Virus record (IMG/VR): IMGVR_UViG_3300017788_000214
Coordinates: 1 to 21,029 of that record
Length of the DNA stretch: 21,029 nucleotides
Strand: one strand, 5' to 3'
Source of the DNA: a virus
Within the stretch, counting starts at the first letter, position 1. Each line of letters begins with the position of its first letter. The notes beneath the pieces were generated by a model. The model saw only the letters and a program-made list of their open reading frames with translations. It made no database searches and had not been told where the DNA came from. Positions 15,108-19,980 of this stretch are shown here, piece after piece. Position numbers and translations under genes: made by a program.

Positions 15108-15321
15108 ACTCTATTCCCTCCTGTCTCATTATTACTTTGTAGGTGTCTCCCTTGATGTCACAAGCGAAACAAATAAATGTGTTTAGTTCTTCGTTGAATG
15201 ATGCTGATGGTGTTCTGTCATTGTGGAACGGACATTTACATCTGACCCAACCTCTGCCTTGCCTAAGGCTCGCGCCATAGTGCTCAAGGATGTGTCTAAT
15301 TTGATGTTTGGCTTGCGCCAT
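14983..15321 (-). CDS. Primase zinc-binding (CHC2) subunit (112 aa)
   Basis: Residues 28-60 hold the CHC2 zinc motif of DnaG primases: C30-P-F-H33, then PSASF, then C51-F-A-C54-D-I-K-G-D. The domain recognises template DNA and initiates priming. After FAERITG at about residue 83 the sequence turns into a Ser/Arg-rich tail (SSSGRRVSQGQGIISRRRA), which lies in the overlap with the Toprim gene. AGGAGGAG precedes the ATG. Primases divided into two overlapping genes are known in actinophages. Either two subunits are made, or a frameshift in the overlap joins them. Confidence 0.9.
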   Translation of the reverse strand: MAQAKHQIRHILEHYGASLRQGRGWVRCKCPFHNDRTPSASFNEELNTFICFACDIKGDTYKVIMRQEGIEYGEAVKFAERITGTSRSALSKESSSGRRVSQGQGIISRRRA

Positions 15322-15331
15322 CTTCTCCTCC

Positions 15332-15691
15332 TTACCACGGGTAGTCCTTTACTCTTGTGACGACATAGGCTTCGTCAATTGACTTGCCTCTTGCTTTGAT
15401 GATGAGAAGGGGATGGAGTCCTGTCTTAAGATTGCGATGCTTTGCATAATTGCCAGCCTCCGAATACGCCTCCTTAAGCCATCCAGACAAATCAATACGA
15501 TTAGAAGCACCTGGAGCCTTAGCCTCAATAATGATTGGGCAGTTAGAAAAGTTCTCAACATAGACATCACCTTCATCTTCTTTACCTGTCCTCGCTAGTC
15601 GCTCTGCCTTCATACCCATTTCGCGAAACCAATCACGCAACTGAGTTTCAAAGGTAGCACCGCGTTGCTTGTGTGATTTTCTAGTTGTCAT
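15332..15691 (-). CDS. Holliday-junction-resolvase-like PD-(D/E)XK nuclease (119 aa)
   Basis: This compact nuclease-like domain has E15 in RGATFETQLRDWF, D42 in DEGDVYV, E56-A-K58 in IIIEAKAP, then a helix and a final strand HPLLIIKARG. This order (E, D, ExK) matches the small archaeal-resolvase/VRR-like PD-(D/E)XK proteins that phages use to cut branched DNA during recombination and packaging. It sits next to the primase and the RecA-type ATPase. Its start overlaps the end of a 40-aa membrane-protein gene and has no strong Shine-Dalgarno of its own, so translation is likely coupled. Confidence 0.8.
   Translation of the reverse strand: MTTRKSHKQRGATFETQLRDWFREMGMKAERLARTGKEDEGDVYVENFSNCPIIIEAKAPGASNRIDLSGWLKEAYSEAGNYAKHRNLKTGLHPLLIIKARGKSIDEAYVVTRVKDYPW
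15419..15430 (+). repeat. Dispersed 12-mer TCCTGTCTTAAG, copy 2
   Basis: Exact copy, 1173 bases from copy 1 and in the same orientation. It lies inside the resolvase-like gene, where the coding strand gives LKTG. Confidence 0.85.
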
Positions 15692-16671: not shown

Positions 16672-17094
16672 TTACTTAGGGTTTACTGGTTTACATTGTG
16701 TTGCACGAGGACCAGTGCAAGCCCAGAACTTGTATGGCTTACCTGTCTTGGATGATACACCTTCCATCCACTTCATCGGTCCGTGTACACACACTGGTGG
16801 CTGGTTACCTGCTGGTGCAGCCGAAGGTGCAGGTGTAGGCCAACTTTCAAATGGACCATCTGTTGATGCAGTGCTAACTGTTGTGTTCACTGTTGCTAGT
16901 GATGTTGTGACAGGTGCAAGAGCACCTGCTACTTTAAGATTAGCACCAATCTTGTTGATTAATTCAACCACTGATTCATCAAAGGCGATGAGGTTTTGTA
17001 CAAACTCCTCAATGCTTTCACCCCTAATGTTTGTCATATCCTGTTCCTTATGACCACCTTTGAAGGAGGTCTGGAACTTCCAGTTGTCCGACAT
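16672..17094 (-). CDS. Putative ssDNA-binding-like protein with C-terminal zinc ribbon (140 aa)
   Basis: The ATG at 17094 overlaps the preceding TAA (TAATG) and has GAGGAG upstream. The N-terminal ~55 residues (WKFQTSFKGG, then TNIRGESIEEFVQNL) resemble a domain recalled from actinophage replication proteins. A flexible Ala/Thr/Pro-rich linker (about 58-100) follows. The C-terminus holds C102-x-H104-GPMKWMEG...GKPYKFWAC126...C134, a likely zinc ribbon. Its place between the Cas4-like nuclease and the ATPase fits a ssDNA-binding or recombination accessory protein. That assignment is tentative; only the zinc motif is directly visible. Confidence 0.6.
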   Translation of the reverse strand: MSDNWKFQTSFKGGHKEQDMTNIRGESIEEFVQNLIAFDESVVELINKIGANLKVAGALAPVTTSLATVNTTVSTASTDGPFESWPTPAPSAAPAGNQPPVCVHGPMKWMEGVSSKTGKPYKFWACTGPRATQCKPVNPK

Positions 17095-17741
17095 TATTTT
17101 TTCTCCTCTATATATATCGGTATCTTCTTTGTTACATCTGCTGATGGATACCATTCGCAGAACTCTCGTACTGAACACATATGGCAGTGTCCGTGGTTAG
17201 GTAAGAATACTCCTTGCTTACGGGCTTTGTCAAAACCTGCTATGAGTTTCTCTACTTGGTGTGTCGGATAATTATCTAAGTCTGTAATGCTTTCTGTGCC
17301 AGCCTTACGCGCCATCCAATAAGTTCCCCACTTGGGTCGTACTCCGTACACTAAGTCAATGCCAGCAGCGTAGACTGCTAACTGTAAGTCTGATTGTGGT
17401 GTACGCCTTCCTGTCTTAAGGTCTAAGATTACCAAGTCACCGTCAGGTCTGACGAATACTCGGTCAATACTCATCTTGGTAGGTACACCAGCAATCTGAA
17501 TATTAAAGTCTAACTCAATCGCTAAGCGATTATCAGGTGCTCGCCAAATCTTCCAGCCTACAGCCTTGCGCCAGTCAATCCAAGACTGGAGCATCACCTT
17601 GCCTTGTTCACTCCACCATTCATAGTTTTCACCATCAGGATTACCTTTGGTCTGACTAGATTTAGTGACACGCCACTGGTTAGGGTCAGCATTTTTAGTT
17701 TCTAATGCCCAAGCCTTAGCCCATAATTCATCTACCACCAT
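17094..17741 (-). CDS. Cas4/RecB-like PD-(D/E)XK exonuclease, C-terminal part (215 aa)
   Basis: This carries most of a Cas4/AddB-type nuclease domain. D93 lies in MSIDRVFV, D107-L-K109-TG in LVILDLKTG, and Q120-LAV-Y124 is the QxxxY motif. Three cysteines at 186, 189 and 195 have the C-x2-C-x5-C spacing that, in Cas4, joins one N-terminal Cys to hold a 4Fe-4S cluster. The N-terminal cysteine and the motif I histidine are missing here, but both occur in the ORF at 18082-18276. AGGAGG stands eight bases before this ATG, inside the end of the intervening transglycosylase gene. The protein would resect DNA ends only if the N-terminal part binds it. Confidence 0.85.
   Translation of the reverse strand: MVVDELWAKAWALETKNADPNQWRVTKSSQTKGNPDGENYEWWSEQGKVMLQSWIDWRKAVGWKIWRAPDNRLAIELDFNIQIAGVPTKMSIDRVFVRPDGDLVILDLKTGRRTPQSDLQLAVYAAGIDLVYGVRPKWGTYWMARKAGTESITDLDNYPTHQVEKLIAGFDKARKQGVFLPNHGHCHMCSVREFCEWYPSADVTKKIPIYIEEKK
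17409..17420 (+). repeat. Dispersed 12-mer TCCTGTCTTAAG, copy 4
   Basis: Exact copy, 992 bases from copy 3, over the catalytic DLKTG motif of the Cas4-like gene. Confidence 0.85.
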
Positions 17742-18085
17742 CCTTTTTTCCTCCTATCATCTAGTGCGTTGCAGAATCCACCATAGCGGTAGTCTGCATA
17801 CTTTATTGCTAACTCTGTTTGTCTGTAGATATTCCATCTCTTTGTCTCATTCATAAACTGAAACAATCCCCAAGCACCTGAGGTTTCATTCACTGCTCGT
17901 TCTCGCCAGCGTGACTCTGCGTGTACTATCTCATCAACACACTTGGCTTCTTCAAGTCCTCGTTCACTGTAGATAAACTTTAACACGCGCTCGCGTGTTC
18001 CGCTTACAGCAGTAGGGTATTCATCACCACGATTAAAGTGTATCTCATACACGATGTCTGGTGGTGGAAATGGAATGATTATCAT
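17732..18085 (-). CDS. Lytic transglycosylase-like (SLT) protein inserted in the nuclease gene (117 aa)
   Basis: Residues about 45-117 show the lysozyme-like SLT layout. Glu57 lies in IVHAESRWRERA, SGAWGLFQFMNET follows, then AIKYADYRYGGF and a C-terminal GWW that matches the usual end of such domains, so the domain is complete. These enzymes cleave the MurNAc-GlcNAc bond in peptidoglycan. No signal peptide or anchor is present. It starts on the stop of the nuclease N-part (ATGA) and ends 10 bases inside the nuclease C-part. A lysis-type gene within a replication module on the opposite strand from the lysis cassette is out of place, suggesting insertion as a moron-like gene. Confidence 0.75.
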   Translation of the reverse strand: MIIIPFPPPDIVYEIHFNRGDEYPTAVSGTRERVLKFIYSERGLEEAKCVDEIVHAESRWRERAVNETSGAWGLFQFMNETKRWNIYRQTELAIKYADYRYGGFCNALDDRRKKGWW

Positions 18086-18276
18086 TCACCCTCCAACTGC
18101 CTATCATACAATTCAGTTGCGGAGTGCAGTGCTTTCCCTCCAAATAGCCAAGCGCTAGGTTCTTCCTCAACTTGCATTACACGAGTGAGTAAATACGAAT
18201 GTCCACACGATAGCCAAGTTGTTAGGCTTGAATAACTTATATGTAAGGGCAACTCTTGCCCATTAACTAAAATCAT
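18082..18276 (-). CDS. Cas4/RecB-like exonuclease, N-terminal part (64 aa)
   Basis: The short protein begins MILVNGQELPLHISYSSLTT. It contains C24 in WLSCGHSYLLTRV, then EPSAWLFGGKALHSATELYD with H51. This is the start of Cas4/AddB-type phage exonucleases: the ISxSSLxxxxxC segment with the first iron-sulphur cysteine, and the GxxxH motif I. The frame stops after LEGE, just where intact homologues would go on into the domain that is found at 17094-17741. AAAGGAGG precedes the ATG. It may be a working fragment that reassembles with the C-part or a remnant of a disrupted gene. Confidence 0.75.
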   Translation of the reverse strand: MILVNGQELPLHISYSSLTTWLSCGHSYLLTRVMQVEEEPSAWLFGGKALHSATELYDRQLEGE

Positions 18277-18289
18277 TTATCCTCCTTTA

Positions 18290-18298
18290 TTAAGACAG
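18290..18298 (-). repeat. 9-base core CTGTCTTAA on - strand, intergenic
   Basis: The + strand shows TTAAGACAG. It lies two bases upstream of the Shine-Dalgarno of the nuclease N-part gene and next to the foot of the 18301-18381 stem. Confidence 0.6.
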
Positions 18299-18300
18299 AA

Positions 18301-18381
18301 AAGAACTAGGTCGGTAGCGCACAAGGAGGAGGGGCTACTGAAAGGATGAGTTGCAGTATAGCAACTACCAACCTAGTTCTT
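18301..18381 (-). ncRNA. Structured RNA / 5' leader with long stem and anti-SD loop
   Basis: Bases 18301-18317 pair with 18365-18381 in a 17-bp stem; on the - strand RNA every position pairs, one as G-U. Inside, GTTGC (18350-18354) pairs with GCAAC (18361-18365). A competing short stem, GTAGC (18314-18318) with GCTAC (18334-18338), would break the inner end of the main stem. The - strand loop carries UCCUCCUU (18330-18323), an exact 8-base complement of the AAGGAGGA ribosome-binding site at 18287-18280. It could be a leader that controls the nuclease gene or a separate small RNA. No known RNA family is recognised. Confidence 0.55.
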
Positions 18382-18424
18382 AAATCTATTTAGTTATTAT
18401 ATAATAATATATAATAATTATATA
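18382..18424. promoter_or_regulatory. AT-rich tract, possible promoter or unwinding element
   Basis: This stretch is almost entirely A and T with overlapping TATAAT and TATTAT words on both strands. It lies just upstream (in the - direction) of the structured RNA. It could supply a -10 box for leftward transcription or a DNA-unwinding site. No clear -35 box was seen. Confidence 0.4.
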
Positions 18425-18442
18425 CCCCCGTGAGGGGGGTAT
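18422..18442 (-). terminator. GC hairpin in AT-rich surroundings, possible terminator
   Basis: ATACCCCC (18422-18429) pairs with GGGGGTAT (18435-18442) around a 5-base loop. On the - strand it is followed by an A/T-rich run without a pure T tract. It would end or attenuate transcription from the WhiB and zinc-protein genes, which stop at 18458. Confidence 0.5.
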
Positions 18443-18457
18443 TATTATTAGTTATTA

Positions 18458-18661
18458 TCATAACTCTATTATACCATAGTCAGGGTGGTCTAGCGGAGTC
18501 GGGGCTGTTATCGGCGTGTCGCACTCAAAGCAACGCGCATCAAGCCCATACATCGCTACCTCGTATGTCTCAGGGTCAAAGCACACTGGCAGATTTAGCC
18601 AGAAGTTTCCACAGTTAGGGCACTGTGCAGTAGGTATTCCTGTCGGGTCTATCCCACTCAT
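18458..18661 (-). CDS. Small zinc-ribbon protein (67 aa)
   Basis: Two CxxC pairs, C14-PN-C17 and C44-FE-C47, separated by about 26 residues, form a likely zinc ribbon. The remaining sequence (FDPETYEVAMYGLDARCFEC) includes a short hydrophobic strand region. The C-terminal tail TPLDHPDYGIIEL is acidic. It is coupled to the WhiB-like gene by an ATGA overlap, suggesting the two are co-expressed. Small proteins of this shape are frequent in phage early regions, and none has a function I can name. Confidence 0.7.
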   Translation of the reverse strand: MSGIDPTGIPTAQCPNCGNFWLNLPVCFDPETYEVAMYGLDARCFECDTPITAPTPLDHPDYGIIEL

Positions 18662-19666: not shown

Positions 19667-19947
19667 TAGTTGTCCTCCTTTAAATTAACAATCACTAAGT
19701 CATCGTGCGGTACTTCGGTAATAAAATATCCTATCCGATTAACTATTGAATATCCTGATGAAATGTAAGGGTTTCCGTAATCGTCATCCGCATAAGTCCA
19801 TATCTTGTTTGAGTCTTGTTGCCGTACGAAATCTAACTCATCTCCGTAGGTTTCAAACATCTCACCATCAACAGATGCGTTCTCGTCTAGGTGATTCTTA
19901 ATAGGCTTGTACTTCTCTGCCCATTCTGTATCTGTAAGTGTAATCAT
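19666..19947 (-). CDS. 93-aa conserved phage hypothetical protein
   Basis: AAGGAGGAT precedes the ATG. The product contains YGDELDFVRQQDSNKIWTYA followed by SGYSIVNRIGYFITE, a pattern (YGxELxFVxxQxxxxIWTYxDxD and GYxxVNRIGYFxTE) that I have seen in many unrelated tailed phages as a short conserved hypothetical. It is acidic and beta-rich. It lies directly downstream of the palindrome-bearing interval 19948-20046, so it may be the first gene of a transcription unit. Confidence 0.8.
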   Translation of the reverse strand: MITLTDTEWAEKYKPIKNHLDENASVDGEMFETYGDELDFVRQQDSNKIWTYADDDYGNPYISSGYSIVNRIGYFITEVPHDDLVIVNLKEDN

Positions 19948-19966
19948 TACTTATCCTCCTTGTTAT

Positions 19967-19980
19967 CTGTCTTAAGACAG
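19967..19980. promoter_or_regulatory. Perfect 14-bp palindrome CTGTCTTAAGACAG (operator-like)
   Basis: This perfect inverted repeat sits 20 bases upstream of the 93-aa gene. It is the symmetric form of the 12-mer found at five other places, so it may be the strongest binding site of a common regulator. Confidence 0.6.

Follow-up and report, generated by a model that had tools for sequence, protein, structure and literature searches.

In phage T4, the RegB and RegA proteins switch off early genes through the Shine-Dalgarno (SD) region, and in the 6C RNA of actinobacteria and the RsaE-type RNAs, C/U-rich single-stranded loops pair with the SDs of several mRNAs. Phage antisense RNAs with a loop directed against the ribosome-binding site of a single target are also known already. 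The closest known system in its working to the locus described here is the C4 antisense RNA of phages P1 and P7, whose loops meet the ribosome-binding site of the ant mRNA and block its translation (PMC12197685). In pattern, the closest known system is the Start-Associated Sequence (SAS) of cluster K mycobacteriophages, an extended SD that is common to 13-19 genes of one phage and conserved beyond its pairing with 16S rRNA, and whose partner could be either RNA or protein (PMC3203893); the ESAS repeats are now read as promoters (PMC11373665).

Like C4, the putative leader RNA that we describe from aquatic, actinophage-like viruses is a structured phage RNA encoded upstream of its target, with loops complementary to a phage ribosome-binding site, but C4 serves one target (ant), whereas the leader loops match a motif of many unlinked genes. 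As with SAS, a conserved extended SD stands upstream of many genes of one phage, although the motif and the hosts are others: the motifs here are GACAGGAG, GAAAGGATGA, AAGGAGGA and GGAGACA, not the SAS consensus GGGATAGGAGCCC. A phage gene set switched off at the SD region is also the theme of RegB and RegA, which are proteins, while we propose RNA pairing. Unlike the 6C and RsaE-type RNAs, which are host-encoded and use short generic seeds, the leader has 8-10 nt phage-specific seeds and a different architecture. Searches of Rfam with the window and its relatives gave no match at the gathering threshold and only noise at a permissive one; membership of the 6C family was rejected on finding no covariance-model match, and that of the C4 family on finding no gathering-level match and no C4 among the noise.

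A hairpin element before a split nuclease gene

The whole stretch of DNA that was analyzed (the window) is a 21,029-base virus record with an actinophage-like genome, encoding a WhiB-like protein (19233-18658) and relatives of mycobacteriophage genes. Structural genes occupy the plus strand up to approximately 10.5 kb, and replication-side genes run leftwards on the minus strand. The hairpin element sits between a 67-aa ORF (18661-18458) and the first gene of the minus-strand series, which comprises, in order, the N-terminal piece of a PD-(D/E)XK nuclease, an SLT transglycosylase-like ORF, the C-terminal piece of the nuclease, a gp49-like protein, a DnaB/AAA ATPase, a DnaG zinc ribbon, a Toprim ORF and a sigma-70 region-4 protein. 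A DNA similarity search of the phage collection returned nothing for the window region, the WhiB ORF had no matches among viral contigs, and a host genome scan with the nuclease of phage ct2KA10, described below, found no relative and so pointed to no host or prophage.

The gene starting at 18276 had been called a nuclease gene in a first-pass annotation of the sequence. Its position and conserved linkage bear this out, but the ORF is only the 64-aa N-terminal piece (18082-18276, minus strand) and has no Pfam match of its own; the domain match (PDDEXK_1, Cas4-like) lies in the C-terminal ORF (17094-17741, minus strand). The same division into N-terminal and C-terminal ORFs is seen at L021:3826-4603 and in relatives, as it is in the window (18276-17094, minus strand), with the SLT transglycosylase-like ORF (18085-17732 in the window) between the halves in the window clade and a direct overlap of the halves in ct2KA10. 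The primase is seemingly split too (15321-14481, minus strand), with a DnaG zinc-ribbon ORF (15321-14983) overlapping a separate Toprim ORF (15107-14481).

The element itself spans 18301-18381 on the minus strand and is identified by an inverted repeat, by its fold stability and by paired changes in relatives. Its outer stem, P1, joins 18381-18365 to 18317-18301 in a 17-nt inverted repeat that is 94% complementary as DNA. This is the 17-bp stem reported in the first-pass annotation, and its sole plus-strand mismatch is indeed a G-U pair in the minus-strand RNA. The fold is much more stable than those of 200 dinucleotide shuffles, with a z of -6.1 on the minus strand and -5.1 on the plus strand.

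Two pyrimidine-rich tracts are presented inside P1. The outer anti-SD loop, CCUCCUCCUU (18323-18332, minus strand), is the complement of the SD of the first downstream gene and of other AAGGAGGA SDs; the tract, which includes UCCUCCUU at 18330-18323, is predicted to be unpaired with a probability of 0.96. A second anti-SD loop, which had not been singled out before, belongs to the inner hairpin P2 (18334-18362, minus strand; 18362-18354 paired with 18340-18334, bulged) and presents UCAUCCUUUC at 18349-18340. The first-pass annotation mentioned an inner hairpin; the one that recurs at this place in relatives is P2, whose loop is kept in all members of the window clade on a stem of differing sequence. 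Neither the small GUUGC/GCAAC hairpin nor the supposedly mutually exclusive GTAGC/GCTAC stem is kept. In the window, the P2 stem is weak (-2.3 kcal/mol compared to -5.3 for the GUUGC/GCAAC hairpin), and the UCAUCCUUUC tract is predicted to be unpaired with either inner fold (0.86). Overall, the predicted unpaired probabilities of the anti-SD tracts are 0.62-0.99.

Upstream of the element lies a G+C-rich hairpin (18422-18442, minus strand), with an equivalent hairpin at the same place in most relatives. A candidate -10 hexamer, TATAAT preceded by TGG, is found approximately 85 nt upstream of P1 (18468-18473, minus strand); it is proposed from consensus only, a similar hexamer occupies the same place in relatives, and the sequence holds no clear -35 for it. 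We also observed that GGCGTGTCG (18513-18521 in the window) recurs upstream of the leader in several relatives. The long stem runs directly to the first gene with no terminator in between, suggesting a leader rather than a free small RNA, although processing is possible.

Paired changes and strand in relatives

A search with the nuclease recovered six contigs in which the element occupies the equivalent position; of these, three share an identical element sequence and two others are nearly identical. Across the six, paired changes preserve the outer stem, the stems of the inner hairpin are entirely different, and two tracts of the loops are conserved, namely UCAUCCUUUC in the inner hairpin and CCUCCUCCU after it. 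A search of viral contigs with the bare motif UCAUCCUUUC..CCUCCUCCU returned known relatives and chance matches only. A more distant relative, ct2KA10 (OX376641, from a public phage collection), has a stem, a small bulge, 3 bp and a 12-nt loop ending in CUCCUGUC, followed by the SD GACAGGAG.

To widen the set, we used the ct2KA10 nuclease, which gave 308 relatives, and a mixed alignment, which gave at least 572 in IMG/VR; 80 loci were taken from each. Our own hairpin finder recognized the element in 89 loci, representing 33 distinct hairpins. In the simpler type of element (28 distinct members), 95.2% of stem cells pair and 14 of the 21 stem pairs change on both sides; such compensatory changes in related phages had been named as a check in the first-pass annotation. 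The stem covariation score is 0.357, compared to 0.153 in shuffles and at most 0.109 when slid, and the whole named structure (stem plus loop-SD pairs) shows 91 two-sided cell changes, compared to 26 in shuffles and at most 19 when slid. The short upper stem varies as GAG/CUC, AAG/CUU and GGC/GCC.

Read in the minus-strand (gene) sense, the 33 distinct stems contain 49 G-U and 2 A-C pairs among their non-Watson-Crick pairs, a count that is partly biased in that the finder tolerated G-U and penalized mismatches, although one mismatch was allowed per stem and almost none was used for A-C. This asymmetry agrees with the assignment of the minus strand as the functional sense, which had first been made from the single mismatch in the window. 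We note that a larger, different structured leader precedes the nuclease at L121:2040-2260 (z -3.7; similar in L117, L126 and L134), where the anti-SD pattern was not matched.

Loops match the SD of the gene that follows

The first downstream gene of the window carries the SD AAGGAGGA (18280-18287, minus strand) before its ATG at 18276, and the 8-base match between it and loop UCCUCCUU (18330-18323 against 18287-18280, both on the minus strand) is exact, as first annotated. Clades with unrelated stems have loop and following SD in different matching versions: UCCUCCUU/AAGGAGGA in the window, UCCUCUCC/GGAGAGGA in L004, CUCCUGUC/GACAGGAG in the ct2KA10 type, UCCUUUC/GAAAGGA in L149 and UUGUCUCC/GGAGACAA in L150. 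Where a small ORF is inserted between the element and the nuclease, it is the inserted ORF that carries the matching SD. Within one clade, the complementarity of loop and cis SD shows only G-U-type variation. An own-versus-cross energy test of the cis pair over 18 representatives, weak clades included, gave a modest p = 0.03, owing to the similar composition of all loops and of all SDs. In some clades (L113, L137), the hairpin that precedes the nuclease matches its SD poorly, and L149/G001 has the match in cis but no shared SD or regulon.

These matches would suit a purely cis-acting leader, in which the loop pairs with the SD just downstream in an H-type pseudoknot and controls the first gene only, and in which the motif elsewhere reflects a general SD preference. 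The matching sequences differ between clades, the match shifts to a small inserted ORF when that comes first, and the linker of approximately 6-13 nt could span the stem. We nevertheless regard control confined to the first gene as improbable, and as an insufficient account: nothing in cis matches the inner loop UCAUCCUUUC, whose 10-nt complement is instead the shared SD of other genes, and other targets are found upstream of the RNA or on the opposite strand. Nor would plain SD preference account for the shared motifs, because their extra bases, such as the GAC- of GACAGGAG, fall outside the pairing with 16S rRNA. The switch hiding its own SD that the first-pass annotation suggested thus stands in part: in the clearest clades, the loop does match the cis SD, and a pseudoknot could form. 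With an inner loop that has no cis target, however, it is not the whole story.

The loop complement is shared by other genes of the same phage

We fetched whole or nearly whole contigs, called start codons by simple rules, and listed the 8-mers common upstream of most ATGs without using the loops. In nearly all RNA-bearing contigs, the loop complement was a top shared 8-mer, G016 being the clearest exception; enrichment of the shared SD is weak in G016 and G014. Contigs without such a loop had no SD-like 8-mer common to more than a few genes, except G004 with AGGAGGAA. Counts of non-cis SD sites follow the loops: GACAGGAG has 51 sites in 338 kb of contigs with its own loop compared to 4 in 393 kb of others, AAAGGATGA has 10 in 76 kb compared to 3 in 655 kb, and GGAGACA has 11 in 33 kb compared to 11 in 697 kb, although there are only three independent motif groups and the site-count p-values treat sites within a phage as independent. 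As a composition control, the reversed motif GAGGACAG occurs at 10 sites, compared to 85 for GACAGGAG, in the same own-loop contigs. Across the three motif groups, loop-SD complementarity changes in step with the shared SD, which, along with the covarying stem and its strand, we take as established.

Individual phages show where the targets lie. By our own count, ct2KA10 contains GACAGGAG ten times in 38.9 kb, and seven of these are the SDs of non-cis genes. The ct2KA10 genes with GACAGGAG are mostly small and on the plus strand, while the RNA is on the minus strand, which argues for action in trans. GGAGACA is common to two phages with loop UUGUCUCC. In the window clade, two loops go with two shared motifs, which in G018 are GAAAGGAT and AAGGAGGA. 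The P2 loop UCAUCCUUUC pairs with GAAAGGATGA, an SD common to genes upstream of the RNA in relatives; the GAAAGGATGA genes of G018 are located there, suggesting that the inner loop acts on them in trans, if they are not linked to the leader by a longer transcript from upstream.

In the window, the proposed trans target of P2 is the SD GAAAGGATGA (20656-20665, minus strand) of the gene at 20651-20409, a 10-nt complement of the loop, and this is the only gene in the window with the motif because the window ends just beyond. For the outer loop, the proposed trans targets are loop-complementary AAGGAGGA SDs on the minus strand, before the genes at 19947 (19954-19961) and 19666 (19673-19680) and before the DnaG zinc-ribbon gene at 15321 (15326-15333). 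Being canonical SDs, these three are weakly informative alone.

One gene can be followed across all three motif groups. A SprT-like protease gene, assigned by a Pfam SprT-like match just below the curated cut-off, has the SD GACAGGAG in G006 and G012, GAAAGGATGA in G018 and G019, and AGGAGACAA in G010, in each case matching the loop of its own phage; in G013 its SD is GACGGGAG, a wobble match. On inspection, the target genes are dissimilar to one another. Among the functions put forward in the first-pass annotation, a small RNA acting on many SD sites is the best supported, and the strongest evidence for it comes from the inner loop, which had gone unnamed, and from relatives with other motifs.

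A separate sequence feature was seen in the same contigs. The palindrome GTCTTAAGAC occurs at 19969 and 20697 in the window, and some copies run straight into an SD; it is possibly an operator. It is present in 1-7 copies in contigs with the RNA and a shared SD (G006, G010-G013, G016-G019, G021-G023 and L187) and absent from contigs without the RNA and from G014.

A proposed antisense leader acting on an SD regulon

We consider it likely that the leader is a trans-acting antisense RNA that prevents translation initiation across a phage-specific SD regulon, its own first gene included. The element would be the 5′ leader of the nuclease/replication operon, or a small RNA derived from that leader, in the minus-strand sense. 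Its long stem would hold up pyrimidine-rich loops that are the exact antisense of the extended SD common to the phage's own genes. Upon transcription of the operon, the loops would pair in trans with the SDs of the gene set and keep ribosomes off; the SD of the first gene would also be paired, either in a cis pseudoknot or in trans. The SD would in this way be an address that places otherwise unlinked genes under one RNA, and silencing of one gene set would be tied to transcription of another. The predicted loop-SD pairing is well supported, and we infer that the RNA accumulates, that pairing represses translation and that it sets the timing of early versus later genes.

The shared SD might instead be kept by some other cause, such as a phage protein like T4 RegA or the spread of an SD by duplication, with the loop merely tracking the cis SD. 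Start-site motifs with no known RNA partner do exist, namely SAS (PMC3203893) and the motif of cluster EF (PMC7302621), and we found no convincing antisense SAS loop in the EF phage AnnaSerena. An independent cause of this kind seems unlikely to us, given that a second loop, directed against a shared SD other than the cis SD, has been retained in the window clade, that contigs without such an RNA loop are mostly without a shared SD motif, and that the target genes resemble one another so little. A DNA element (an origin, a protein-binding dyad or a bidirectional terminator) or a plus-strand decoy of the 16S 3′ end, the latter also raised in the first-pass annotation, would fit an A+T-rich gap that contains a long inverted repeat and, next to it, a terminator-like hairpin scoring on both strands, but is very improbable and, for the decoy, unsupported, as the G-U pairs point to the minus strand and the loops have departed from the 16S 3′ end and follow the SD motifs of their own phages.

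If the leader does act as an antisense RNA in trans, one RNA directed against a motif of unlinked genes, with both changing between clades, would be a compact translational switch for gene sets. We give even chances to the broader hypothesis of a phage-wide translational code, in which a clade-specific extended SD is the address and the antisense loops reside in the leader of another operon. Switching that operon on would silence the regulon, loop and SDs would change together, and the K1 SAS may be a second use of the code.

An antisense SAS loop in mycobacteriophages

The leader offers a testable candidate partner for the mycobacteriophage SAS, whose role has been under question since 2011 and which can be studied in a cultured host with RNA-seq already published. 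The 29 kb of Adephagia (K1) that we examined contain a single antisense copy of SAS, which has one mismatch in 13 bases and lies within the loop of a long hairpin (GGCGUCGACCAG..CUGGUCGACGUC). This hairpin occupies the gap between genes 92 and 93, where published RNA-seq places the start of late transcription (PMC11373665).

The loop is kept exactly in 4 of 12 aligned phages (Adephagia, Enkosi, Validus and Devera). Others keep SAS, with loops that are altered (in DarthP by a one-base gap) or absent (Pixie). A coordinated change of loop and SAS across K subclusters was predicted but not seen: GGGATAGGAG is retained by Amgine, DarthP, Ximenita, Shandong1 and Pixie although their loops differ. 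The identification of the SprT-like target with the SAS-bearing gp75 of Adephagia was likewise unsupported by pairwise similarity (E 0.06). Because SAS is kept where loops are altered or absent, and AnnaSerena lacks a convincing loop, the mycobacteriophage link to the leader RNA is a lead and not a result.

The Adephagia hairpin locus has matches in 177 mycobacteriophage records, often unannotated. It is a conserved intergenic RNA candidate at the cluster K late promoter (JF704105 58447-58878; L228:28448-28879), with an invariant TAGACT and, in K1, the anti-SAS hairpin; in some records, short ORFs are annotated over it.
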